Assembly: GCA_003647385.1 (NCBI GenBank)
Contig: QMMT01000025.1
Location: forward strand, 1-11,254
DNA: 11,254 bases
Direction of reading: 5' to 3'
DNA from: Deltaproteobacteria bacterium
Lineage (GTDB): Bacteria > Desulfobacterota > Desulfobacteria > Desulfobacterales > Desulfobacteraceae
Under the pieces are notes generated by a model. It made no database searches, had not been told where the DNA came from, and was given only the letters and a program-made list of their open reading frames with translations. Positions 1 through 11,087 of this stretch are shown here, piece by piece. The position numbers and the translations under genes are program-made. Every line of letters starts with the position of its first letter. Position 1 is the first letter of the stretch.

Positions 1-501
1 AACCCACAGTCTTCCCATGATGTTGTCGCAGCTGTTAAAAAAGTAATCAATGTCCCGCTCATTGTAAAATTAACACCCCAGGCACTGAATATTGGTGATA
101 TAGCAAAGGCCTGTGAAGATGCCGGTGCTGATGCCATCTGCGCCATCAATACCCTGGGCCCGGGGATGGTGATTGATATTGAAGCAAAGATGCCGGTGCT
201 GTCCTTTAAAAAAGGAGGGCTTTCAGGTCCCATGATAAAACCTGTTGCCATTCGATGTGTGTTTGATATTTACAAGGCCGTAGACATTCCCATCATTGGG
301 CTCGGCGGCATTACTACAGGGGAAGATGCGATCGAAATGATCATGGCAGGAGCAAGCCTTGTGGGAATTGGAAGTGCTGTCCGGTACAGGGGTATTGATG
401 TGTTTCAAACGGTCTCAGATGAAATGGAAGCCTGGTTTTTAGATCATCATTGCAGTTTAGATGACATTAAAGGGGCTGCCCATGAGGGAAACCAATCATG
501 A
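1..501 (+). CDS. pyrD: Dihydroorotate dehydrogenase, class 1B catalytic subunit (3' part)
   Basis: The reading frame is open from base 1 to the TGA at 499-501, giving the C-terminal 166 residues; the start and the part that should hold the catalytic cysteine lie outside the window. PyrD oxidises dihydroorotate to orotate on FMN, the fourth step of UMP synthesis, in the cytoplasm. Seen here are the barrel lysine segment LIVKLTP, the substrate-binding INT, the GGLSGPMIKP motif, and the FMN-phosphate site GLGGITTGEDA followed by MAGASLVGIGSA. These are class 1 features, and the adjoining pyrK makes it 1B, the NAD-linked heterotetramer. The wording around INTLGPGM and the C-terminal YRGIDVF resembles archaeal class 1B enzymes as I remember them, so an archaeal-like lineage is possible. 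The last codons overlap pyrK by four bases (ATGA), implying translational coupling. The order pyrD then pyrK is the reverse of that in Bacillus. Confidence 0.96.
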   Translation, partial: NPQSSHDVVAAVKKVINVPLIVKLTPQALNIGDIAKACEDAGADAICAINTLGPGMVIDIEAKMPVLSFKKGGLSGPMIKPVAIRCVFDIYKAVDIPIIGLGGITTGEDAIEMIMAGASLVGIGSAVRYRGIDVFQTVSDEMEAWFLDHHCSLDDIKGAAHEGNQS

Positions 502-1310
502 ACACTATTACCGATCAGAACCATATCATGCTCAGAGTTGGAAAAAAACAAATTGAAAGCCAAAACTTTGCCACTTTGTTTTTTAACCATGCTCTGCCTT
601 TCAAGCCCGGTCAATTCATCATGGTATGGATACCGGGTATGGATGAAAAACCCTATACCATATCTTATCATTCAAAAGAAAATTTTGCCATTACCATTGA
701 GGCCAAGGGGCTTTTTTCTACTAAAGCCATTTCACTGGAAACGGGTGACCTGATTGGAATCCGGGGACCCTTTGGAAACGGGTTTAATATCAAACCAGAT
801 GACAAAGTAGCGGTCGTAGCCGGCGGCTGCGGAATGGCACCTCTGGCCACCCTGATGGAACAGCTTTCCAAAAGTACAACCTTTATTCATGGGGCAAGAT
901 CCAAAGAGTATATTCTCTACCCGGAGCGATTTGATATTGAAAGGCTATTTTGTACGGATGACGGAAGTTTTGGTTATAAAGGATTTGTAACAGATCTTTT
1001 GGAAAAAGAAATTACATCAGGAAAACACTTTGACAGTGTCTATACCTGCGGACCTGAAATCATGATGTACACTGTTTTTTGTATCTGTGAAAAGTATGAC
1101 ATCCCCTGTCAGGTCTCTTTGGAACGTTACATGCGATGTGGTTTTGGTGTTTGCGGAGCCTGTGTCTGCGGCAAACAGGTGGTCTGCAAAGACGGACCGG
1201 TATTCGAATCTTCCACACTTCGTGCTATGAAAGACTTTAATGCAAAAGCCTTGCTGAAATCCGGTAAAGATGTTGATCTTTCCCAATATTTTTCCTGGCG
1301 TTGTAAATAA
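498..1310 (+). CDS. pyrK: Dihydroorotate dehydrogenase electron-transfer subunit PyrK
   Basis: This 270-residue protein carries electrons from the FMN of PyrD to NAD+ through a [2Fe-2S] cluster and FAD. The N-terminal FAD-binding barrel (about 1-95) holds KPYTIS at 51-56, the counterpart of the flavin RPYS/T motif. The NAD-binding domain (about 100-205) holds AGGCGMAP at 108-115, TDDGSFGYKG at 153-162 and CGP at 184-186. The C-terminal iron-sulfur motif has four cysteines, C214, C219, C222 and C230, spaced C-x4-C-x2-C-x7-C as is normal for PyrK. Length is usual for the family. The ATG at 498 overlaps the pyrD stop, which fixes the start and suggests equal synthesis of the two subunits. A shadow frame begins at 538 but carries no family signature. 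The identification is firm. Confidence 0.97.
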   Translation: MNTITDQNHIMLRVGKKQIESQNFATLFFNHALPFKPGQFIMVWIPGMDEKPYTISYHSKENFAITIEAKGLFSTKAISLETGDLIGIRGPFGNGFNIKPDDKVAVVAGGCGMAPLATLMEQLSKSTTFIHGARSKEYILYPERFDIERLFCTDDGSFGYKGFVTDLLEKEITSGKHFDSVYTCGPEIMMYTVFCICEKYDIPCQVSLERYMRCGFGVCGACVCGKQVVCKDGPVFESSTLRAMKDFNAKALLKSGKDVDLSQYFSWRCK

Positions 1311-1319
1311 AAAAATATT

Positions 1320-1351
1320 TTACGTGTGACCTTCAGGTTACGTGTGATCTT
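1320..1351 (+). repeat. Paired 14-base direct repeat forming a hairpin upstream of pyrE
   Basis: Two near-identical 14-mers, TTACGTGTGACCTT (1320-1333) and TTACGTGTGATCTT (1338-1351), differ at one base and sit 18 bases apart in the 62-base pyrK-pyrE gap. As RNA, 1322-1331 can pair with 1336-1345 across a UUCA loop for ten pairs, several of them G-U. No U-tract follows, so this is not a standard terminator. It could be an RNA processing site, an attenuator element, or a repressor site with two half-sites about two helical turns apart. The function is not determined. Confidence 0.45.
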
Positions 1352-1372
1352 TAGTTTAAAGGATTTTTATAA

Positions 1373-2041
1373 ATGACATATAAAGAAGAATTTATTGAAT
1401 TTTTAATTGAGTGCAATGCTTTAAAATTTGGCAAATTTGAATTGAAAAGCGGCAGGATTGCCCCCTACTTTATCAATACCGGCATGTTTGATACCGGATT
1501 TAAAATTAAAAGACTCGGTATCTATTATGCCAAAGCCATACAGGAGCATTTCTCTGACAACTTCGACGGGATCTATGGCCCTGCTTACAAAGGGATCCCT
1601 TTATGCATCTGCACTGCCATGGCACTTTCTGACATGGGCCTGGATAAAGGGTATGTATTCAATCGAAAAGAAGCTAAAACCTATGCTGACAAGAGCCTTG
1701 TTGTGGGCATGCCCCTGACAACCGATTCCAGACTGATTCTGGTTGATGATGTCATTACATCCGGGAAAGCCATCAGGGAATCTCTTGAAATCCTTAAATC
1801 CTGTGATAATCCAAAGGTCAACGGTATTGTTATCAGTGTGAACCGCCAGGAAAAAGGCAAAACCGAAAAAAATGCATTAAAGGAAGTTGAAGAGATCCTT
1901 GGCATTCCCATCCACTCCATTGTCACCATCACGGAAATAAAGGAATACCTGCACAATAAAGAAATAGATGGCAAGGTGATTCTTGATGATCACATGCTTT
2001 CAAAAATCGATACCTATCTTGAAGAATATGGTGCCATATGA
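1373..2041 (+). CDS. pyrE: Orotate phosphoribosyltransferase PyrE
   Basis: This 222-residue cytoplasmic enzyme joins orotate to PRPP to give OMP, the step after PyrD/PyrK. Visible family features are the substrate segment LKSGRIAPYF (24-33), GPAYKGIPL (69-77), the flexible-loop entry FNRKEAK (96-102), and the PRPP-binding loop LILVDDVITSGKA (121-133) with the acidic pair D125/D126. The start ATG has an AAAGGA ribosome-binding site at 1358-1363 at good spacing. Odd point: the catalytic loop, KDHGEGG in the enterobacterial enzyme, reads KTYADKS here, so the loop histidine is replaced by tyrosine (Y104). The gene lies 62 bases after pyrK and probably shares its transcript. It ends convergent to serB with a 44-base gap. 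The family call is firm; only the loop makes the catalytic detail unusual. Confidence 0.95.
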   Translation: MTYKEEFIEFLIECNALKFGKFELKSGRIAPYFINTGMFDTGFKIKRLGIYYAKAIQEHFSDNFDGIYGPAYKGIPLCICTAMALSDMGLDKGYVFNRKEAKTYADKSLVVGMPLTTDSRLILVDDVITSGKAIRESLEILKSCDNPKVNGIVISVNRQEKGKTEKNALKEVEEILGIPIHSIVTITEIKEYLHNKEIDGKVILDDHMLSKIDTYLEEYGAI

Positions 2042-2085
2042 AAATCAAGCAACCGATTTAGGATTCTATTCTAAGGATAACCCAT

Positions 2086-3309
2086 CTAAGAATAGTGCTG
2101 ACGTATCTCTCTTTCGCTGATTCCCATCAGATACAGCAGCCCATCCAATCCAACGCTGGATATGGACTTTTGTGCGTTTTCCTTTACAGTCGGCTTGGCG
2201 TGAAATGCAATGCCTAAACCGGCAATACTGATCATTGGAAGATCGTTGGCACCGTCACCAACAGCGATGGTCTGCTGAAGACTGATATTTTCTACCGTGG
2301 CAATGGTCTTGAGGATTTCGGCTTTTCTATGCCCGTCAATAATATCACCGGTAACACTTCCGGTAACTTTACCCTCTTTGATTTCAAGTGCATTGGTAAA
2401 AACATAATCAAGCCCCAGTTTGCTCTGTAGATATCCACCGAAATAATCAAAGCCACCGGATATGATGCCTATTTTATACCCAAGTTTTTTTAAGGCAGTA
2501 ACCAGACGCTGGGCACCTTCAGTCAACTCAAGATTTTCGGCAACCTGAGCCAGTACTTTTTCATCCAGGCCTTTGAGCAGAGCCACCCGCTGGGTGAAAC
2601 TTTGTTTAAAATCTATGTCACCGTTCATAGCAGACTCAGTAATCTGTGCGACCTGTTCTCCAACTCCGGCGTGCTTTGCCAGTTCATCAATGACTTCACA
2701 CTGGATTAAAGTTGAATCCATATCAAAAACGATCAACCTGCGGGCATGGCGATAAATGTCATCTACATGAAAAGAGATGTCAATCCCGGTTTTTTTTGAA
2801 ATTTCAAGCAATTGCCGGCGTAATCTGCCAGGATCATGCATCTTGCCGGATACGGTAAGCTGTATGCAGGCTTTGGGGAATCGTTCGGTCTCATCTTGCG
2901 GCACCCATCCGGAAAGTTTGGTAATAATATCAATATTGAGCTGGTTGGCTGCGATTGCAGCTGTAACTTCGGATAGCTGCCTTGCGGTCAGGGTACGACC
3001 CAGAAGTGTTATGATCCTTCGTTCATGGCCATTAGAAGCGACCCATCCGATATAGCTTTCAGCATCAATGGCCGAAAACCGAATCTGAATCTCAAGTTCA
3101 TGGGCCTGGAATAGAAGATCTTTAAGGATAGACGATGATGAATGTTTTGATGGTATTTCAACCAGTATGCCCAAAGAAAGATAATCATGAATAACAGCCT
3201 GCCCGATATCCAGGATAATGACTTCATATTGCGAAAGGATATTGGTTAAGCTGGTGGTCAAACCGGGTTTGTCTTTACCGGTAATATTAATTAGGATAAT
3301 TTCTCTCAA
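2086..3309 (-). CDS. serB: Phosphoserine phosphatase SerB with two ACT domains
   Basis: A 407-residue enzyme that hydrolyses O-phosphoserine to serine, the last step of serine synthesis. The N-terminal half carries two ACT-type regulatory domains, about residues 4-75 (starting IILINITGKDKPGL) and 97-180 (RRIITLLGRTLTARQL). The C-terminal half is a HAD phosphatase: motif I FDMDSTLIQCE with nucleophile D196 and D198, motif II ISGG at 283-286, the motif III lysine K329 in HRKAEIL, and motif IV VGDGANDLPM with D352 and D356. It is longer than the enterobacterial enzyme (about 320 residues); the two-ACT form is known from other bacteria and suggests feedback by an amino acid. The start is TTG at 3309: no in-frame ATG lies just upstream and GGAG sits at proper distance. 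It follows iorB by 54 bases on the same strand, so it is probably part of the iorAB transcript. Confidence 0.95.
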   Translation of the reverse strand: MREIILINITGKDKPGLTTSLTNILSQYEVIILDIGQAVIHDYLSLGILVEIPSKHSSSSILKDLLFQAHELEIQIRFSAIDAESYIGWVASNGHERRIITLLGRTLTARQLSEVTAAIAANQLNIDIITKLSGWVPQDETERFPKACIQLTVSGKMHDPGRLRRQLLEISKKTGIDISFHVDDIYRHARRLIVFDMDSTLIQCEVIDELAKHAGVGEQVAQITESAMNGDIDFKQSFTQRVALLKGLDEKVLAQVAENLELTEGAQRLVTALKKLGYKIGIISGGFDYFGGYLQSKLGLDYVFTNALEIKEGKVTGSVTGDIIDGHRKAEILKTIATVENISLQQTIAVGDGANDLPMISIAGLGIAFHAKPTVKENAQKSISSVGLDGLLYLMGISEREIRQHYS

Positions 3310-3316
3310 TACAAAT

Positions 3317-3320
3317 CTCC
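3317..3320 (-). promoter_or_regulatory. Ribosome-binding site supporting the TTG start of serB
   Basis: On the minus strand GGAG lies seven bases before TTG at 3309-3307. The TTG begins MREIILINITGKDKPGL, the expected first strand of the ACT domain, so the rare start codon is preferred over a later ATG. Confidence 0.6.
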
Positions 3321-3363
3321 ATTTATTAAACTGCGGCTCAAAGTTTTTTCTTTAAAGGAAAAT

Positions 3364-3936
3364 TCATGCATATACATTAAAAATCTCTTTGTTTTTCCTT
3401 AACATTTCTCCTGAAAGAAGGTCTTCCAAAGCATCGTCATAATTTTGTTTTGATACACCAGGGACTATTCTCTGTTTTGCAATGGTCCCTAAAAGTGCCA
3501 TATTCTGCATCCTTGAATCGTCCATGGTCCGGGTATCCACTTTAACAGCAACTGCACCAATAGACTCACATGCCGTCTGAATATCGTTTGCAGTCAGTTC
3601 AGTGTTCAGACCCAGACGAACACCCAGCGGTTGCCAGGAGACATCCAAGTATACCAGCGTGCCACCCTTTTTCAAAGCCGTTTCAAGTCCCCGCATGGCC
3701 TCATGAATCTCCATACCTAAGACAAGATCGGCACTATTTTTCATGATCATCGGGGAATGGATCTTATCCCCGCATCGAATCATGGAAACGACCACACCCC
3801 CTCTCTGGGCAAGACCGTGGGTATCCACGGCAAGGGCATTAATTCCTGCATGATCTATTCCCCGCAACAACGCCTGACTCAACAATCCAATACCCTGCCC
3901 GCCGACACCTGTGATATGAATATTATATGCTTTCAT
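3364..3936 (-). CDS. iorB: Indolepyruvate:ferredoxin oxidoreductase, beta subunit IorB
   Basis: This 190-residue protein is the small, gamma-domain-type subunit of the oxidoreductase that decarboxylates indolepyruvate and other aryl pyruvates to aryl-acetyl-CoA with ferredoxin as electron acceptor. It opens with the glycine-rich GVGGQGIGLLSQAL (10-23) typical of the POR/KOR gamma domain, followed by DTHGLAQRGGVVVSMIR (38-54), also a hallmark of the family. Its size is normal. The start codon overlaps the iorA stop by four bases (ATGA, 3933-3936), with GGAG at 3941-3944 on the minus strand, so the two subunits are translationally coupled. It gives no sign of damage. The physiological direction cannot be read from sequence: it may serve aromatic amino acid breakdown, or reductive synthesis from aryl acids. 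Confidence 0.95.
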   Translation of the reverse strand: MKAYNIHITGVGGQGIGLLSQALLRGIDHAGINALAVDTHGLAQRGGVVVSMIRCGDKIHSPMIMKNSADLVLGMEIHEAMRGLETALKKGGTLVYLDVSWQPLGVRLGLNTELTANDIQTACESIGAVAVKVDTRTMDDSRMQNMALLGTIAKQRIVPGVSKQNYDDALEDLLSGEMLRKNKEIFNVYA

Positions 3937-5786
3937 TTTACTCCTTTATCAAAATCAATTGCCTGTTGGGGGCACGATGGCCTGCATGATCCATCCCCGA
4001 TACATAGATCAAGATTGATATCCACACTCTGGTCCGGATTTCGGATAAAGGTGGGACAGCCGAACTGCTCCACACAGTCATGGGTTTGATTGCAGGTTTC
4101 CTGGTCAATGGTAATATGCTTTTGAATAAACCCTGGTTTTTTTCTTTGAAGCCTTGTGAACTTGAGCATGCAGGGGTGACTGGCAATGACCACACTGATA
4201 CCGTCTATTCTCATGGCGGTCTTTACAAGATCTGTTAATTTTTCCTGTTTGTAGGTATCGCATAAGAAAACATTTTCAATACCCAGCCCTTTTAAAAGAC
4301 TTTCAATGGAAATTTCTTCACCCGCATGATCCTGATGACCGGTCATGGCTGTGGTACCATTTTCCATAATAATCAACGTCATATTGTGATGGTTAAAAAT
4401 CGTATTGATCAACCCTGGAAGACCGGCATGAAAAAAGGTTGAATCTCCCAAAAAGGCCACCACTCTTTTTTTATCATTAAACAAGGACAATCCGGATGCC
4501 ATACCCGGAGAAGCACCCATACACATTAAAACCTCACCTATGTTATAAGGCGGCATATATCCCAACGTGTGACAGCCGATATCCGCTACTGTGACATCTT
4601 CTTTTCCCAGGGCTTTTTTGATAGCAAAAAAAGCACTCCTATGCCCACATCCGGGACACATCTGCGCCGGCCTTGCCGGGATGTCAAACGGCAGGACAAA
4701 CGCTTTTGGGTTATCAGTTGTTATATCCGGCCATACGCTTACAAGTTTTCCCCTTACCTTATCCGGGGTGTATTCACCCACATAATCTTCATCCTCTTTT
4801 TTCCCGATCAATTTTACTGTAAGACCTTCATCATACGCCATGGCTTTAATCTGAATTTCAAGGATATCATCCAGTTCTTCTATAATCAGAACCTCGTCAT
4901 GAGCTTTTAAAAAGGAAAGGATACTGATTTCTTCAAGGGGATTTACAGCACCCAGTTTTAAAATATCAGGCCTGTATGCTGCTGTTTCAAGCACATCCAG
5001 CAAAGACAAATAAGTCAACCCGGAAGTAATGATACCTTTTTTTCGACTGTTCTGAGAGGCCAATTCCATATTTAAGCCCGCTTGTCTGATATATTGTTTT
5101 GATCGATGAAGTTTTTTAATTAATTTTCGTTTCATATCCAGCGCCATTGTTGTCAACGCTATATACGGACCATTTTCCGAATTGAAATCCGTTCGATAGG
5201 AGGGGGTATTTTTATAGGCATCAAACTTAACTTTCTGCCTTGCATGGCAGACATGGGTGGTCAGTCTCAGCACAACAACGGTCTGTTCTTTTACGGCAAG
5301 GGCTGCAGCATGTTTATAATATTCATAGGCTTCCTTTGGAGATGCCGGTTCTAAAACCGTTACCCTGGACATTTTATAGACATTCCTGTTGTCCTGCTCA
5401 TTCTGGGAGGAATTTGCTCCGGGATCATCTCCCAAAATAGCCACCATGCCGCCGATAATATTCATCAATCCCAACTGTACAAAGGTATCAAGCGCCACAT
5501 TCAATCCTACACTTTTAAAAAATACACAGGAAAGATTGCCGTTTAATGCAGCCCCGAATGCCACCTCCGTAGCCACCTTTTCATTAACTGAAAATTCAAA
5601 ATAAAAAGGACGTTCAGTTTCTGTGACGCTTTGAATGGCTGTTGCGATCTCAGGGGTTGGTGAGCCGGGATAAGACGTCACCACTTTAGTCCCTGTTTCT
5701 ATCATTGCCCTGACAACGGCCTCGTTTCCCATTAAAATTTCCTCAAAGGGATTTTCACCTGTAAGGATATCACCTAATTTTTTCAT
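3933..5786 (-). CDS. iorA: Indolepyruvate:ferredoxin oxidoreductase, alpha subunit IorA
   Basis: A 617-residue large subunit combining the pyrimidine-binding, TPP-binding and ferredoxin-like domains of the 2-oxoacid:ferredoxin oxidoreductases. The N-terminal part starts GNEAVVRAMIETG (20-32) and SYPGSPTPEIA (38-48). The TPP domain has CPGCGHR (377-383), GDSTFFHAGLPGL (447-459) and MENGTTAMTGHQDH (474-487), which bind the Mg-diphosphate. The C-terminal Fe-S region (about 560-610) is atypical: cysteines are C565, C571, C577 and C595, C601, C605, while the second cysteine of each CxxCxxC motif is replaced by T568 and D598. Family members usually have four cysteines per motif. The ATG at 5786 is preceded by GAGGA. 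Likely promoter and operator sites lie just upstream. The enzyme is cytoplasmic, oxygen-sensitive and typical of anaerobes. The substrate range is inferred from the family. Confidence 0.95.
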   Translation of the reverse strand: MKKLGDILTGENPFEEILMGNEAVVRAMIETGTKVVTSYPGSPTPEIATAIQSVTETERPFYFEFSVNEKVATEVAFGAALNGNLSCVFFKSVGLNVALDTFVQLGLMNIIGGMVAILGDDPGANSSQNEQDNRNVYKMSRVTVLEPASPKEAYEYYKHAAALAVKEQTVVVLRLTTHVCHARQKVKFDAYKNTPSYRTDFNSENGPYIALTTMALDMKRKLIKKLHRSKQYIRQAGLNMELASQNSRKKGIITSGLTYLSLLDVLETAAYRPDILKLGAVNPLEEISILSFLKAHDEVLIIEELDDILEIQIKAMAYDEGLTVKLIGKKEDEDYVGEYTPDKVRGKLVSVWPDITTDNPKAFVLPFDIPARPAQMCPGCGHRSAFFAIKKALGKEDVTVADIGCHTLGYMPPYNIGEVLMCMGASPGMASGLSLFNDKKRVVAFLGDSTFFHAGLPGLINTIFNHHNMTLIIMENGTTAMTGHQDHAGEEISIESLLKGLGIENVFLCDTYKQEKLTDLVKTAMRIDGISVVIASHPCMLKFTRLQRKKPGFIQKHITIDQETCNQTHDCVEQFGCPTFIRNPDQSVDINLDLCIGDGSCRPSCPQQAIDFDKGVK

Positions 5787-6002: not shown

Positions 6003-6656
6003 TTAACTGGTTTTGAGTTTTTTAAGTCCACTTTCCGATCCCAGGAGAATCATGACACCATTATCTTTAAAAATAAAATCTGCTTTTGGGATAAAGTACA
6101 CCTTTTCAGAAATCATCTCCTTGATTGCAATAATCTGAACATCATACCGATTGGGCAGTTTGACCTGCCGGAGTGATTTTCCGATAAAACTTTTTGGTAC
6201 TGCCAGTTCTATTATCCCATACCCTTCCATAAACGGCAGGTAATCTATTAAATTTGGATTATGGAGCTTTTCAGCCATAGAAATGGCATTATCTTTTTCC
6301 GGAAAACAAATATCCCGTACCCCTAATTTTTCAAGTACCCGTTTATGGGGTTCATTAATTGCTTTTGCAACGATATGCCGTATACCGGCCTCTTGGAGGT
6401 TAAGAACTGCTAAGATTGAATTACTCAAAACAGACCCAATACTGACCACCGCTACATCCATCTCCTTTACACCCAAAGAACCAATAACATCTGCATCGGT
6501 AGCATCTGCCACAATAGCCTGTGTTACTTTGGTCTTTATACGATCTACAAGTTCCGGTTTTTTATCAATGGCCATTACATCATGACCTTTGCTGTAAAGG
6601 TGTGTCGCCAGAAAATATCCAAAATTTCCAAGCCCGATTACTAAAAACTGTTTCAT
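6003..6656 (-). CDS. ktrA: KtrA/TrkA-family potassium-uptake regulatory subunit (RCK protein)
   Basis: A 217-residue cytoplasmic gating subunit of a K+ transporter. The N-terminal RCK/TrkA-N Rossmann domain (about 1-125) has the nucleotide loop GLGNFG (8-13), an acidic residue D31 after strand two, VADATD (49-54), and VVSIGSVLSNS (70-80). The C-terminal TrkA-C domain covers about 140-215. One RCK_N plus one RCK_C in about 220 residues is the KtrA layout; E. coli TrkA is twice as long. Family members bind ATP/ADP or NAD(H), and often c-di-AMP in the C-terminal domain; which ligand applies here cannot be seen. The ribosome-binding site AAGGAG (6663-6668, minus strand) overlaps the stop codon of ktrB and lies six bases from the ATG, tying its translation to the membrane partner. 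It appears to be the last gene of the operon. Confidence 0.93.
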   Translation of the reverse strand: MKQFLVIGLGNFGYFLATHLYSKGHDVMAIDKKPELVDRIKTKVTQAIVADATDADVIGSLGVKEMDVAVVSIGSVLSNSILAVLNLQEAGIRHIVAKAINEPHKRVLEKLGVRDICFPEKDNAISMAEKLHNPNLIDYLPFMEGYGIIELAVPKSFIGKSLRQVKLPNRYDVQIIAIKEMISEKVYFIPKADFIFKDNGVMILLGSESGLKKLKTS

Positions 6657-6666
6657 GGGTTTCTCC

Positions 6667-8040
6667 TTATCCTATCATGATATCATCCCGGGCATAAGAA
6701 TACTTCTTTGCTGCTCCATGCCTGCTGATAGCAATAGCAATCACCAAAGGACCAATCCGCCCGACAAACATCATCATCGTAATAATCAGTCTGCCGGCCG
6801 TTGAAAGGGTAGATGTGATACCGGTTGACAACCCGACTGTGCCAAAAGCACTTATATTTTCAAACATTAATTCCAAAAATGCCCCCCTGCTGAATCGATG
6901 AGAAACCTCCCCAATCTCTGTTTGCTGTAACAGTATAATTCCAATGGTGATTACAAAGAAACTGACCATGATGAGGCTGACAGCTTTGGTAATACTTTCA
7001 TCAGATATCCTCCGGTAAAAGATTTGAGGAGAGTCCTGCCCGAAAAGCCGGGACACCCCAAAAATAATTATGGTTGAAAACGTTGTGATTTTGATTCCAC
7101 CACCGCATGAACCGGGTGCCGTGCCGATGAACATCAAAATCATGGCTAACAGCAGAGTTTCATTGGTTAATTCTCCAATTTGAACGGTATTGAATCCGGC
7201 AGTCCTGGCATTTACAGATTGGAAAAAAGAAGCCAGTAGTTTATACGGTATTGTCATTTCCTTTAAAGTGTTCTGCCATTCTAATAAAAAGAATGCTGCC
7301 GTGCTGATAAAAAGAAGCAGCACCGTGCTTGAAAGGACCAGTTTTGTATGCAGGCTCAAATGGGACCACATCCGCCTGGAAAATGATACATTTTTTATTT
7401 CAGAAAGAACAACAAAACCGATACCACCAAGGATAATCAAGGCGCTGATGGTAAGATTCAATACCCAGTCATGCGTATAGCCTGTAAAACTGTTTGAAAA
7501 AAGCGAAAAGCCTGCATTGCAAAATGCACTGACAGAGTGAAATACAGAATAAAAAATTCCCATCCCTGTTGTCTGACCGGAGTGGAATCGGAAAAATAAT
7601 ATCACGGCACCTATAGATTCAATCGCAACTGTAAATAAGACAATGTCTTTTATAAGAGGCAGCGTTCCTTTTCCATGGCTCAAGCTGTATGTATCCTGAA
7701 GCAATATTCTACCAGTAATACTGACTTTTTTCCCAATTGAGAATAAAAAAATGGTTGATAATACCATAATACCAATACCACCCACCTGGATCAGAGAAAG
7801 GATAACCATCTTCCCAAAGAGGGTAAACGTTCCTGCGGTATCGACTATGGTTAATCCAGTGACACAGACGGCAGACGCGGCAGTAAACAGGGCATCAACA
7901 AAATGAAGATGATCGTTTGTGGAAACCGGTAAATACAATAAAAAAGTCCCCAATATAATAAGAGCGGTATAACCGATTACAGCAATTCGACCGGGTGAAT
8001 TTGAAAAAGATCTTTCCAATTTGCTTATAATTAATTTCAT
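6667..8040 (-). CDS. ktrB: KtrB/TrkH-family potassium transporter membrane subunit
   Basis: A 457-residue inner-membrane protein of the SKT superfamily, with four repeated membrane-pore-membrane units. All four selectivity-filter loops are present with their glycines: AVCVTGL (G62), AFCNAGF (G177), ARTAGF (G282) and AFGTVGL (G403). The gating loop of the third repeat, GTAPGSCGGGIK (306-317), and the conserved arginine in FVGRIGPL (R428) are also present. Size and single-residue filter pattern fit KtrB, or a shorter TrkH, and the adjoining short RCK gene favours KtrB. KtrAB takes up K+ and is often Na+-dependent, serving turgor and pH control. The gene follows degP by 27 bases on the same strand. 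No clear ribosome-binding site precedes the ATG, so its translation may depend on the upstream gene. It is intact. Confidence 0.94.
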   Translation of the reverse strand: MKLIISKLERSFSNSPGRIAVIGYTALIILGTFLLYLPVSTNDHLHFVDALFTAASAVCVTGLTIVDTAGTFTLFGKMVILSLIQVGGIGIMVLSTIFLFSIGKKVSITGRILLQDTYSLSHGKGTLPLIKDIVLFTVAIESIGAVILFFRFHSGQTTGMGIFYSVFHSVSAFCNAGFSLFSNSFTGYTHDWVLNLTISALIILGGIGFVVLSEIKNVSFSRRMWSHLSLHTKLVLSSTVLLLFISTAAFFLLEWQNTLKEMTIPYKLLASFFQSVNARTAGFNTVQIGELTNETLLLAMILMFIGTAPGSCGGGIKITTFSTIIIFGVSRLFGQDSPQIFYRRISDESITKAVSLIMVSFFVITIGIILLQQTEIGEVSHRFSRGAFLELMFENISAFGTVGLSTGITSTLSTAGRLIITMMMFVGRIGPLVIAIAISRHGAAKKYSYARDDIMIG

Positions 8041-8067: not shown

Positions 8068-9555
8068 TTATTTCTTGATATTCAGGGTCAGGTAGTGAGA
8101 ATATTTTCCATCACTAACACGCAGGAGGAGAAAGTTTTTCTTCCTATTTTGTGTGAGGGCCTGCTTGAATTCATCGACATTGTTTACTTGCTTGCGATTT
8201 ATTTCCAGAATCAACATGCCGGGTCTGAGTCCAGCTGATGCGCTGATCGTACCAGGGTTCACCTGTGTGATAACCACTCCCTTTTCCCCCTGATACCCCA
8301 ATTGTTCGGCAAGGCCCGGCGTTAGAGTCTGAACGGTTAATCCCAACTCTGCCAGAGTATGCGATGCAGTGTCGGCGACTGAACCATCATCATGGAGTTT
8401 ACCAATAGTGACATTGAGAATACGACGTTTCCCATCACGCAATATTGTAATTTTCTCTTTTGACCCAGAGGCTTTAAGTGAAACACGATTACGAAATGCG
8501 CCGACATCTTTTACCGGTTTGTCTCCAAACTCTAAAATCACATCTCCTTGTTTCAATCCCGACTTTTCAGCCGGAGAATCTTTAGTAACCTGGGCAATCA
8601 ATATCCCTTTAAGATCATCCAGGCCGAATGATTCTGCTAACTCAGGTGTAAGGTCTTGGATGATGATTCCAAGATACCCTCGAGTTACCCCCCCGGTTTT
8701 GATCAATTGATCTTTTACCGCCTTGACCATATTGATGGGGATGGCAAAACCAATGCCCATATAACCACCATTACGGGTAAAGATGGCTGTGTTCATACCG
8801 ATAACCTTACCATCCAGATTTACTAAAGGGCCTCCTGAATTACCGGGATTTATGGCGGCATCAGTCTGAATGAAATTTTCATAATCTGCAAGTCCAAGAC
8901 TGCTTCGTCCCTTCGCGCTGACAATACCGGCAGTAAGTGTATGAGACAGACCAAAGGGATTACCGATGGCAAGAACCCATTCACCCACTTCGAGTTTATC
9001 TGAATCTCCTAAGTCCAGTACCGGTAAATTTTCAGCGTCAATCTTGATCACGGCTATATCAGAATGTGGATCCGTACCAATCGTCTTAGCTGCATATTCC
9101 CGGCCATCTTGAAGCTTAACCGTGACTTTATCCGAGCCGCCGACCACATGGTTGTTGGTTAAAATATATCCGTCTTCAGAAAGAATAAAACCAGAACCTT
9201 GTCCCACTAAACGCTGTTGTTGCTGGGGTGCATGAGAGTAAGGGTAGCCACCAAAGAAATGTTTTAAAAATTCTTCTCCAAGGGGGTTTTGGCCCTCAAA
9301 TGGAGAGGAGGATTCAACAACACCTTGCCTATCAACAATTTTTTCCACCTTGATAAACACCACTGAAGGTGAGACCATTTTTGCCACGGCTGCGAATGCT
9401 TTTCCGGTTTTTTTCAAACTTTCCATACCGTTGTTTTGTGAATAGGCAGCAGGCACAAACATGCCGGATGTCAGAATGATAATAGTGCAAAAAGCAATGA
9501 GGTTGAATCGACTCCATATTTGCATTAACTTATTTTGTTTTTTTTTCGAATTCAT
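8068..9555 (-). CDS. degP: Periplasmic serine protease DegP/HtrA (Do family)
   Basis: A 495-residue protease-chaperone that degrades misfolded envelope proteins. The N-terminus has a basic stretch, a hydrophobic core (about 17-33) and a likely signal-peptidase site after AYS (37-39), so it is exported. The trypsin-like domain holds the full triad: H136 in TNNHVV, D166 in HSDIAVI, and S240 in GNSGGPLVN. Two PDZ domains follow, about 290-385 (from RGYLGIIIQDL) and 400-490 (from LAELGLTVQTLTPGL). Glutamines at 111-114 lie in the region of the regulatory loop before the histidine. Length is normal for two-PDZ Do proteases. The ATG overlaps the stop of the receiver-HPF gene by four bases (9552-9555), with AAGGAG upstream, which couples protease synthesis to the regulatory fusion. 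It is placed in an operon with K+ uptake genes, suggesting a joint envelope or osmotic stress response. Confidence 0.96.
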   Translation of the reverse strand: MNSKKKQNKLMQIWSRFNLIAFCTIIILTSGMFVPAAYSQNNGMESLKKTGKAFAAVAKMVSPSVVFIKVEKIVDRQGVVESSSPFEGQNPLGEEFLKHFFGGYPYSHAPQQQQRLVGQGSGFILSEDGYILTNNHVVGGSDKVTVKLQDGREYAAKTIGTDPHSDIAVIKIDAENLPVLDLGDSDKLEVGEWVLAIGNPFGLSHTLTAGIVSAKGRSSLGLADYENFIQTDAAINPGNSGGPLVNLDGKVIGMNTAIFTRNGGYMGIGFAIPINMVKAVKDQLIKTGGVTRGYLGIIIQDLTPELAESFGLDDLKGILIAQVTKDSPAEKSGLKQGDVILEFGDKPVKDVGAFRNRVSLKASGSKEKITILRDGKRRILNVTIGKLHDDGSVADTASHTLAELGLTVQTLTPGLAEQLGYQGEKGVVITQVNPGTISASAGLRPGMLILEINRKQVNNVDEFKQALTQNRKKNFLLLRVSDGKYSHYLTLNIKK

Positions 9556-10418
9556 CTTATTTGTTCTCCTTGTGTGATGGATGAGTGGAATTTACTGCTG
9601 TTAAGTTTTTTGTGGTAGTTTTTTACTTGACGATACAGTTTATCAAAAACAATTTGGATGGCCAGATAGAGATTCTCATGACCATTGTCTTTGCCTGAGT
9701 TATGCGTTGCAACCAAAGTTTTCCGAGTACATGAGACAGTGGCCGTCACAAGACACCTGTGTTTCAGCTGCTTTTCGGAAGTTGGCTGATCAACCATTAC
9801 GTGACAGCGCTGAATAAATGAATCGAAACGATTTAGTTTGCTTGCCTGTTCCTGGATAAAACTCCTTGCATGGCCAGACCCGCAACCATGCCTGAAAATG
9901 ATATTCATGGGAAATTGAACCGTAGATCCCCTCTCTCTGAATAACAACCGCTGTAGATCTGTTGAGCTTTGCTTGAATGGTATCACCTGCGCAATTGTGG
10001 TAAACAAGTCATCAATATCAAATGGTTTATCGATTACCACTACTGCGCCAAGCTTTTTCGCCCTTATATGGGTAACTTCATCACCAAATGCTGTGATAAG
10101 GATCATAGGTGGAAAGTCCTCATAGTCTTTGATGGCCTCAAGTACCTGCGTTCCGGTTACACCCGGCATCCGAATATCTGAAATGATCAAATCAAAGGTC
10201 TCTGTTTCTCCCAAGGTATCCAAAAAACCCAGTCGCTTCATTAAACTGTTACCGTCCTTGCATTCCGTCACATCAAAGCCTTCTTCTCGCAGGGACCACG
10301 CCAGCATCTTCCGCATCTCCAGGTCATCTTCTGCAAGTAAAACGCGGTAATCATTCTCAGTACTTTCTATCTTAGGATGCCATTGTATCTTAAAGCTTTG
10401 TCCTTTTTTTTTATTCAT
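9552..10418 (-). CDS. Response-regulator receiver domain fused to a ribosome-hibernation (HPF/RaiA) domain
   Basis: A 288-residue two-domain protein. Residues 24-147 form a CheY-like receiver: acidic pocket E30/D31/D32, phosphoacceptor D81 in SDIRMPG, switch threonine T109, and K131 in IDKPF. A linker of about 20 residues leads to a domain at about 168-273 that matches the S30AE/HPF-RaiA fold: strand MNIIFRHG, a helix ending in ASKLNRFDSFI, strand QRCHVMVDQP, a further strand region, and the diagnostic last helix LAIQIVFDKLYRQVKNYHKK (252-271). The FRH, CHV and HENLYLAI wording resembles the short stress-island HPF type as I recall it. Such domains bind the 30S decoding centre and silence ribosomes. 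No DNA-binding output domain is present. The frame is continuous, so the fusion is real in this sequence. It is preceded by AAAGGAAAG and overlaps degP by four bases. The phosphorylation control of ribosome binding is inferred, not shown. Confidence 0.85.
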   Translation of the reverse strand: MNKKKGQSFKIQWHPKIESTENDYRVLLAEDDLEMRKMLAWSLREEGFDVTECKDGNSLMKRLGFLDTLGETETFDLIISDIRMPGVTGTQVLEAIKDYEDFPPMILITAFGDEVTHIRAKKLGAVVVIDKPFDIDDLFTTIAQVIPFKQSSTDLQRLLFRERGSTVQFPMNIIFRHGCGSGHARSFIQEQASKLNRFDSFIQRCHVMVDQPTSEKQLKHRCLVTATVSCTRKTLVATHNSGKDNGHENLYLAIQIVFDKLYRQVKNYHKKLNSSKFHSSITQGEQIR

Positions 10419-10471: not shown

Positions 10472-10933
10472 TTACAATGGAACGATCTCCCGGACTTTAC
10501 CCAGTAAATCATCCATCTCAAACGGCTTGTCAAACATTGCTGCGACCCCCAGCTGTTCAGCCTGATGATGGGTATCTTCATCCCCAAATGCAGTAATCAA
10601 AATAATTGGGGGGTATCCCTCCCCTTGCGGCAGACCCTTCAGTATCTCGATGCCGGTTATGCCCGGCATTCGAATATCGGAAATTATAAGATCGACTTTC
10701 CCGTGTTTCGAGCTGGGGAAAATGTAAGGGCTGAGATATTCAAGTAAACGCCATCCGTCCGGACACTCGACAACTTCATAACCGGCTCCGCTAATCACTA
10801 ATGCAAGTAACGCCCGCATTTCATAATTATCCTCGGCCAGCAGGATACATGGTTTGTTTTTTTTACCGCAAATTGCTGTTGCCTTTGGCCCTTTTTGAAG
10901 GATCGAATTTTGACTGTCATCAATACTTACCAT
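10472..10933 (-). CDS. Stand-alone receiver-domain response regulator (CheY-like)
   Basis: A 153-residue protein with one receiver domain and no output domain. A 27-residue polar leader precedes ILLAEDNYEMR, with acidic-pocket residues E34/D35. The phosphoacceptor is D86 in ISDIRMPG, the switch threonine is T114 in LITAFGDED, and the lysine is K136 in FDKPF. It ends at VPL, directly after the last helix. The domain is clearly paralogous to the receiver of the next gene: DLIISDIRMPG, the ITAFGDE block and DKPF are shared almost unchanged, so the two probably arose by tandem duplication. It may act as a phosphate shuttle or sink, or bind a partner protein. It begins the probable operon, 53 bases before the fusion gene; its ATG is preceded by AGGAATT. 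A sigma-54 promoter lies upstream. The cognate kinase is not in the window. Confidence 0.92.
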   Translation of the reverse strand: MVSIDDSQNSILQKGPKATAICGKKNKPCILLAEDNYEMRALLALVISGAGYEVVECPDGWRLLEYLSPYIFPSSKHGKVDLIISDIRMPGITGIEILKGLPQGEGYPPIILITAFGDEDTHHQAEQLGVAAMFDKPFEMDDLLGKVREIVPL

Positions 10934-10985
10934 GGTGAATTCCTATTCCTGTTTTTAAAATTGTTTTCTCTACAAAGGTGGAATA

Positions 10986-11000
10986 GCAAACTCTATGCCA
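10986..11000 (-). promoter_or_regulatory. Sigma-54 (RpoN) -24/-12 promoter for the receiver-HPF-degP-ktrBA operon
   Basis: On the minus strand the sequence is TGGCATAGAGTTTGC, followed by TA. It matches the sigma-54 consensus TGGCACG-N4-TTGCW with the invariant GG and GC at exact spacing; the C at the sixth position is T and the G at the seventh is A. Transcription would start near 10974, giving a leader of about 40 bases to the ATG at 10933. Sigma-54 promoters need an AAA+ activator bound upstream. Confidence 0.65.
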
Positions 11001-11043
11001 ACTATAAACATAGCAATTACAGCAACTTATATTTTTTAGACGT

Positions 11044-11058
11044 GGGGCAGTATGCCCC
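11044..11058. promoter_or_regulatory. GC-rich inverted repeat, candidate activator-binding site
   Basis: GGGGCA-GTA-TGCCCC is a perfect inverted repeat with six-base arms in an otherwise AT-rich region. Its centre lies about 77 bases upstream of the predicted sigma-54 start site, close to the usual distance for enhancer-binding proteins. It also lies upstream of the rightward sigma-70-like promoter. A further GGGT/ACCC pairing on the minus strand (11062-11075) adjoins it. The role as an enhancer site is an inference. Confidence 0.4.
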
Positions 11059-11087
11059 GAAGGGTAAAAACACCCCATCATTTAGCT

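Follow-up and report, generated by a model that had tools for sequence, protein, structure and literature searches.

A receiver domain joined to a ribosome-hibernation (S30AE/HPF) domain in a putative sigma-54-controlled operon of Desulfobacterales

The window, by which we mean the whole stretch of 11,254 nucleotides that was analysed, comprises positions 1 to 11,254 of contig QMMT01000025.1 in assembly GCA_003647385.1, from a Deltaproteobacteria bacterium (Desulfobacterales; Desulfobacteraceae). On its minus strand a single frame (9552..10418) encodes a protein of 288 aa that joins a receiver to an S30AE/HPF domain. Upstream of this fusion gene lies a single-domain receiver of 153 aa (10472..10933, minus strand, Pfam), with 44% identity to the receiver of the fusion, and the contig ends 321 bases before this lone receiver gene. 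On the other side the stop codon of the fusion overlaps (ATGA) the ATG of an HtrA/DegP-type protease with a trypsin domain and PDZ domains (8068..9555, minus strand, identified by Pfam and the coordinates). The next gene encodes a TrkH-type potassium transporter (6667..8040, minus strand, Pfam), a candidate member of the operon at most, and it is followed by a TrkA-like gene (6003..6656, minus strand) that was named from the sequence, so that the order is receiver - fusion - HtrA - TrkH - TrkA-like. The remaining part, 498-5786, carries PyrK/PyrE-like genes, IorA/IorB-like indolepyruvate oxidoreductase genes and a SerB-like phosphatase with ACT domains. Rfam gave no match at gathering scores within the window.

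The receiver domain covers residues 26-142 (9993..10343, minus strand) with a Pfam Response_reg score of 83.1 bits, and the S30AE/HPF domain residues 172-273 (9600..9905, minus strand), where an own-genome HMM match and the predicted fold agree with a Pfam Ribosomal_S30AE score of 46 bits against a cut-off of 23.7 bits. The preliminary description had proposed that one frame joins a complete receiver, with D81, T109 and K131, to an HPF domain, and the two scores (83 and 46 bits) bear this out. All three residues are intact, the D81 codon lying at 10176-10178 (minus strand), and the protein has what marks a CheY-like receiver, i.e. an acidic pair, a phospho-Asp, a Thr/Ser and a Lys. The protein stops 15 residues past the S30AE domain, which leaves no space for a further C-terminal domain, and in the window fusion protein Pfam matched neither a cold-shock domain C-terminal to S30AE nor the C-terminal ribosome-dimerisation domain of long HPF. 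NCBIfam returned 94 families at E up to 1, of which the best 25 are response regulators, none of these 25 above its own cut-off.

Searching 291 genomes of the order with the S30AE part gave two further fusions, a 310-aa frame in genome G333 and a 395-aa frame in genome G184, on contigs JAJDND010000151.1 (titled Desulfobacterales) and JAMOVG010000241.1 (titled Desulfobacteraceae). With a three-row profile run over genome contigs, 81 stretches fitted the pattern and three of them encode relatives, on these two contigs and on JAJRTU010000120.1 (L092). The fusion is hence found on three more MAG contigs, L092, L062/L093 and L063/L094, with 53%, 42% and 36% identity to that of the window. An alignment of the four shows the acidic pair D31/D32 together with D81, T109 and K131 in every copy, and likewise the ENLY motif and the core S30AE positions; Pfam at 1e-3 matches S30AE in three of them. 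The genes around the fusion are also similar. The order is HK - NtrC - receiver - fusion - HtrA in L062, HK - NtrC - fusion - HtrA in L063, where the interval between NtrC and the fusion showed no lone receiver, and NtrC C-terminal part - receiver - fusion - HtrA in L092, whose contig stops inside HtrA. HtrA thus directly follows the fusion gene in all four loci and a lone receiver stands beside the fusion in three, while the stretches fetched for L062 and L063 had no TrkA or TrkH match. With four contigs sharing the fusion and its neighbours, chance or an assembly artefact can be ruled out as the source, and we regard the architecture of a receiver plus an S30AE domain as practically certain. 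Upstream of the locus in L063, and divergent from it, is a gene for a universal stress protein (2769-3338), before which there is a sigma-54-like word (12 of 13 positions; minus strand, 3338).

Fusions of this kind are few and scattered: three of the 291 genomes in the order have one, as do one of 24 and one of two in the families of G333 and G184, respectively, where no additional fusion was found. Nor did the profile find more in 389 genomes of the class or 395 of the phylum, draws that overlap one another and that of the order. Within the window's own family (86 genomes, at most 28 candidates scored in each), the only full-length cover among the matches listed was the window itself. Fusions could be concealed in long frames, and all listed frames of 243 aa or more from order, class and phylum were therefore inspected, some shorter ones being judged by length only; the 13 further long S30AE frames (243-683 aa) turned out by eye to be long HPFs without a receiver. 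The S30AE loci whose frames were opened are, by eye, HPF with or without a cold-shock-like part (L058 is one that has it, without a receiver) or long HPF, and a receiver is seen only in the fusions. Among viral contigs two stretches fitted a pattern and neither encoded a relative, and a plasmid search gave two records, both from Azospirillum, one with an annotated HPF/RaiA protein and one without annotation.

Upstream of the operon we find a sigma-54 (-24/-12) site, TTGGCATAGAGTTTGCT (10985..11001, minus strand), 51 bases ahead of the ATG of the receiver gene. It has zero mismatches to TGGCAYRNNNNTTGCW and is the sole match to it even if one mismatch is allowed, with 0.57 expected by chance. 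A corresponding site is present upstream of the operon in all four fusion loci, namely CTGGCATGCGAATTGCT in L062, CTGGCACACCTTTTGCT in L063 and TTGGCATGGGATTCGCT in L092, and of 13 consensus positions 11 agree in the window, 12 in L062, 12 in L063 and 11 in L092; plain shuffles would give 0.007-0.05 such words per kb and strand. Other sigma-54-like words of 11 or more number three in L063, one each in L062 and L092 and none in the window.

Further upstream lies the palindrome GGGGCATACTGCCCC (11044..11058, minus strand), a candidate activator site with 12 of 12 letters, a score reached in 0 of 500 shuffles, and 18 bases beyond it a weaker second copy, GGGGTGTTTTTACCC (11062..11076, minus strand). 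In the 3.07-Mb draft genome GGGGCATACTGCCCC is the only exact match to GGGGCAWANTGCCYC, and the backward control pattern has no match. We compared seven upstream regions, those of the four fusion loci and of three loci without the fusion in genomes G135, G139 and G141 (window 11044-11076; upstream regions of L062, L063, L092, L142, L143 and L144). The best word against GGGGCANNNTGCCCC (GGGGCA-N3-TGCCCC-like) has 10-12 of 12 letters in all seven, a score that at most one of 500 shuffles of each region attained; the word itself was derived from these same seven loci. A second copy with 8 to 11 letters, mostly weaker, lies exactly 18 bases away in every one of them, a spacing that was not put in. 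Because the sites are paired at a fixed spacing, they fit as candidate sites of an NtrC-type activator. We also looked for a wider regulon and rejected it: the own genome has four one-mismatch palindromes, the stretches fetched around them held no sigma-54 word of 11 or more (the best was 10, in L109), and by eye these palindromes were judged to be coding.

An NtrC-type regulator is encoded immediately upstream in the three loci that have DNA there, and in the two that reach far enough it is preceded by an HK with HAMP, HisKA and HATPase domains (Pfam) and, by eye, two hydrophobic segments around a loop. In the window genome an orthologous HK-NtrC pair is found on contig C242, not adjoining the operon, and has 61% identity to that of L062 for NtrC and 46% over 368 aa for the HK. 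That the window operon has retained its promoter and palindromes away from HK-NtrC is as expected under control in trans, and judging from these sequence features we consider control of the operon by sigma-54 and NtrC very probable. The shutdown of translation had been described beforehand as transcription-independent, which would be half the picture: besides a putative direct action on ribosomes, the sigma-54 site and paired palindromes, together with the NtrC-type activator and kinase adjoining in relatives, make it probable that the operon is induced as well. On C242 a cardiolipin-synthase-like (phospholipase D) gene comes after HK-NtrC (L110 748-2178, by eye), which is another envelope-related neighbour.

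With a threshold of E 1e-150 that we chose ourselves and five candidates scored per genome, orthologs of this NtrC are present in six of the 291 genomes of the order, including all three with the fusion. The other three have no fusion at the locus. In G135 the order is HK - NtrC - receiver - HtrA, and in G139 it is HK - NtrC - receiver, the 14 kb fetched there giving no match to HtrA; both have weaker sigma-54 sites by eye. In G141 HK - NtrC is followed by a membrane-transporter-like gene (by eye). This gene, of NADH-dehydrogenase/antiporter subunit type by eye, has paired palindromes and a sigma-54 site before it (L142, G141:C428, 2266-2404). Since it replaces the receiver operon in G141, the targets of the regulator may differ between genomes. 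Two relatives keep HK-NtrC-receiver, one of them with HtrA next, without the fusion there, and the fusion therefore looks like an addition to a stress module.

The draft genome to which the window belongs is 81% complete with 5.3% contamination, and it comes from a relative of the sulfate reducers. A foreign contig in the bin was considered and judged unlikely, as PyrK, PyrE, IorA and IorB adjoin at 73-87% identity in two genomes of the same genus, which favours a native contig; the window IorA has 84% identity to a same-genus genome and 82% to G101 from another family of the order. The 19-kb stretches of the two same-genus genomes had no TrkA, TrkH or HtrA match. Tetranucleotide profiles of the window and C242 correlate at 0.935, which may merely reflect the binning. 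L092 is the closest relative found of the window operon (HtrA 71% and fusion 56% in aligned parts) and is filed under a Gammaproteobacteria MAG. The rpoN-hpf-ptsN-hprK-like cluster of that MAG (by eye) has a short HPF and fits the label, so the L092 locus is either horizontally acquired or misbinned.

A model of the whole fusion had a pTM of 0.47, with the linker 148-164 below pLDDT 50 and low confidence in how the receiver is placed relative to the S30AE domain. As fold searches with this model were filled by receivers, the S30AE domain was predicted alone. It has the b-a-b-b-b-a order, and rows 1-34 of the Foldseek search and rows 1-33 of the VIA search are HPF/pY chains by title or name, so the earlier assignment of the domain to the S30AE/HPF family stands on fold as it does on profile (46 bits against 23.7). 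With phmmer the S30AE part matched the hibernation factor 9t0z_9 among solved structures at 8.4e-6. A four-row S30AE profile had HPFcold, 9T0Z, as its best match (3.5e-14) and found 13 distinct solved sequences at E 0.01 or better, twelve of them named hibernation, sigma-54 modulation or subunit-interface proteins and one 30S protein S30.

Basic positions of the domain, candidates for rRNA contact, were compared with those of unfused domains. R176, K194, R263 and K271, whose counterparts are basic in 96, 98, 96 and 80% of 46 unfused S30AE rows, are all basic in the four fusions, and K191 and R225 (basic in 91 and 89% of those rows) are lost in all four, R206 (89%) is lost in two and R239 (72%) has become H in all four. 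With basic positions partly kept and partly lost, the S30AE core appears to be retained in the fusions and the surface to be altered. The net charge of the domain is +4 to +9 in the fusions against a median of +1.5 (range -3 to +8) in the 46 unfused rows, and this is due to fewer acidic residues, as K+R number 14-16 in the fusions against an unfused median of 18.

For the phylogeny we used 50 S30AE domains, the four fusions and 46 unfused ones chosen by similarity to them, including the long HPF of the own genome; L045 (wrong frame) and L118, L120 and L121 (repeats) were left out. All four fusions group together in a single clade (ultrafast bootstrap 93, SH-aLRT 99), and 92% of 200 bootstrap trees show a single origin of the fusion, support that falls slightly short of the 95 which the tool sets as its mark. 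The stem of the clade has 1.13 changes per column, L035 is one long end branch of 1.57, and the own-genome long HPF sits on a very long branch. The S30AE domain of the fusions can be aligned along its full length with unfused HPFs of the phylum, a good many of them with a cold-shock-like C-terminal part, and by sequence its nearest counterpart is HPFcold, minus the cold-shock domain. The simplest history would be that a receiver was copied within an HK-NtrC-receiver-HtrA stress module and joined to an S30AE domain of HPFcold type.

ZraSR-like systems, i.e. an HK and an NtrC-type sigma-54 activator responding to envelope stress, resemble the operon in having an HK with HAMP, HisKA and HATPase domains, an NtrC-type activator and a sigma-54 site, and the operon looks like an envelope-stress response; it differs from them in carrying the receiver-S30AE gene and HtrA. 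The window genome also has another protein of the S30AE family, a long HPF in a cluster of rpoN-hpf-ptsN type (L001, neighbours by eye), but this is a 196-aa frame with its own C-terminal part and no receiver. The preliminary description held that HPF proteins normally stand alone or are followed by a dimerisation domain, which is too narrow, since two other fusions are described (PMC13392368 and PMC13324472). HPFcold (CBU_0020, PDB 9T0Z; PMC13392368) is S30AE plus a cold-shock domain, and is the best solved sequence match of the fusion S30AE (3.5e-14), whereas the fusion is without the cold-shock domain and has a receiver at the N terminus instead. The same paper attributes HPFcold and 'HPF-SigE' fusions to a preprint on hibernation-factor evolution (Chan et al., bioRxiv 2025.11.04.686544). 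HibA joins an archaeal HPF/RaiA domain to CBS domains and thus to a regulatory-type domain, as in the fusion, but there the partners are CBS modules in archaea (PMC13324472), in contrast to the phospho-receiver encoded here in a two-component operon of a bacterium. EutV and other ANTAR regulators (PMC3369931) are alike in aiming their output at RNA rather than DNA; there it is antitermination, here a ribosome-channel domain. An HPF fusion as such is hence already known, and the receiver as the partner is apparently new, at least to us: in the open PMC literature searched, partly with other aims, no receiver-S30AE protein was described by title or start of the abstract, and the Chan et al. preprint may already list one.

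Our best explanation, to which we give about even chances, is that the fusion would act as a hibernation factor gated by phosphorylation, and that a single two-component system would govern the making of both this factor and a periplasmic protease. We infer that the membrane HK would sense envelope trouble and phosphorylate the NtrC-type activator, that this would bind the paired GGGGCA-N3-TGCCCC-like sites, and that together with sigma-54 polymerase it would turn on the operon with the lone receiver, the receiver-S30AE protein and HtrA. The receiver-S30AE protein would itself be phosphorylated on D81, by the same or another kinase, and the phosphate would alter either the dimerisation of the receiver or its contact with S30AE and so set whether the S30AE domain occupies the mRNA/tRNA channel of the 30S subunit. 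Ribosomes could in this way be parked and protected while periplasmic proteins are cleared, the receiver adding a fast, reversible layer above the sigma-54/NtrC induction. The switch could go in several directions: once the receiver is phosphorylated, the S30AE domain might be set free, become dimeric or come off the ribosome. That the fusion binds ribosomes we consider probable, and to gating of this binding by phosphorylation we give about even chances. The stricter version, in which the phosphorylated receiver directly loads HPF on 70S or releases it, perhaps pairing the 70S ribosomes through receiver dimers, with a shutdown within seconds of the envelope signal and co-made with a repair protease, is a tentative proposal to which we give somewhat less than even chances.

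In a different reading the hibernation factor would be constitutive. The receiver would then serve only dimerisation or docking, in place of the C-terminal module that long HPF and HPFcold have and the fusion lacks; the S30AE domain would bind whatever the phosphorylation, and control would come from sigma-54 transcription alone. The transcriptional anatomy is clear, with sigma-54 site and palindromes, the window fusion has neither the long-HPF C-terminal domain nor the cold-shock domain, and receivers often dimerise, all of which would suit such a factor. A mere scaffold would however need nothing of the D31/D32, D81, T109 and K131 pocket that all four copies have kept, and we find this reading rather unlikely. 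It is likewise unlikely in our judgement that the S30AE fold has been reused for another RNA or for a protein, i.e. that the output is non-ribosomal. The ENLY motif and the core positions are kept in all fusions, the net charge of the domain is still positive and the top fold matches are all HPF/pY, even though several basic positions of the unfused relatives are lost, R239 is H, K+R are fewer, Pfam at 1e-3 misses S30AE in one of four copies and the clade stands on a long stem of 1.13 changes per column.

The tandem receivers could also be a phosphate sink, mainly competing for the phosphate of the HK in order to tune the NtrC branch, with S30AE as a degenerating passenger. A lone receiver does adjoin the fusion in three of four loci and is retained in two related loci without the fusion, but a passenger would hardly have preserved its frame and core residues in four diverged copies, and L063 keeps the fusion with no lone receiver found between it and NtrC; we regard a sink as very improbable.

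Control of hibernation factors is commonly regarded as a matter of their amount, which depends on (p)ppGpp, growth phase or sigma factors. If the phosphorylation-gated reading is true, a two-component system would, by way of a receiver on HPF, control hibernation directly and reversibly, and the outputs of response regulators would extend to the ribosome; the arrangement suggests that a sensor kinase may be able to park ribosomes directly. It raises the testable question of how D81 phosphorylation relates to ribosome binding, and one operon would tie translation arrest to periplasmic protein quality control.
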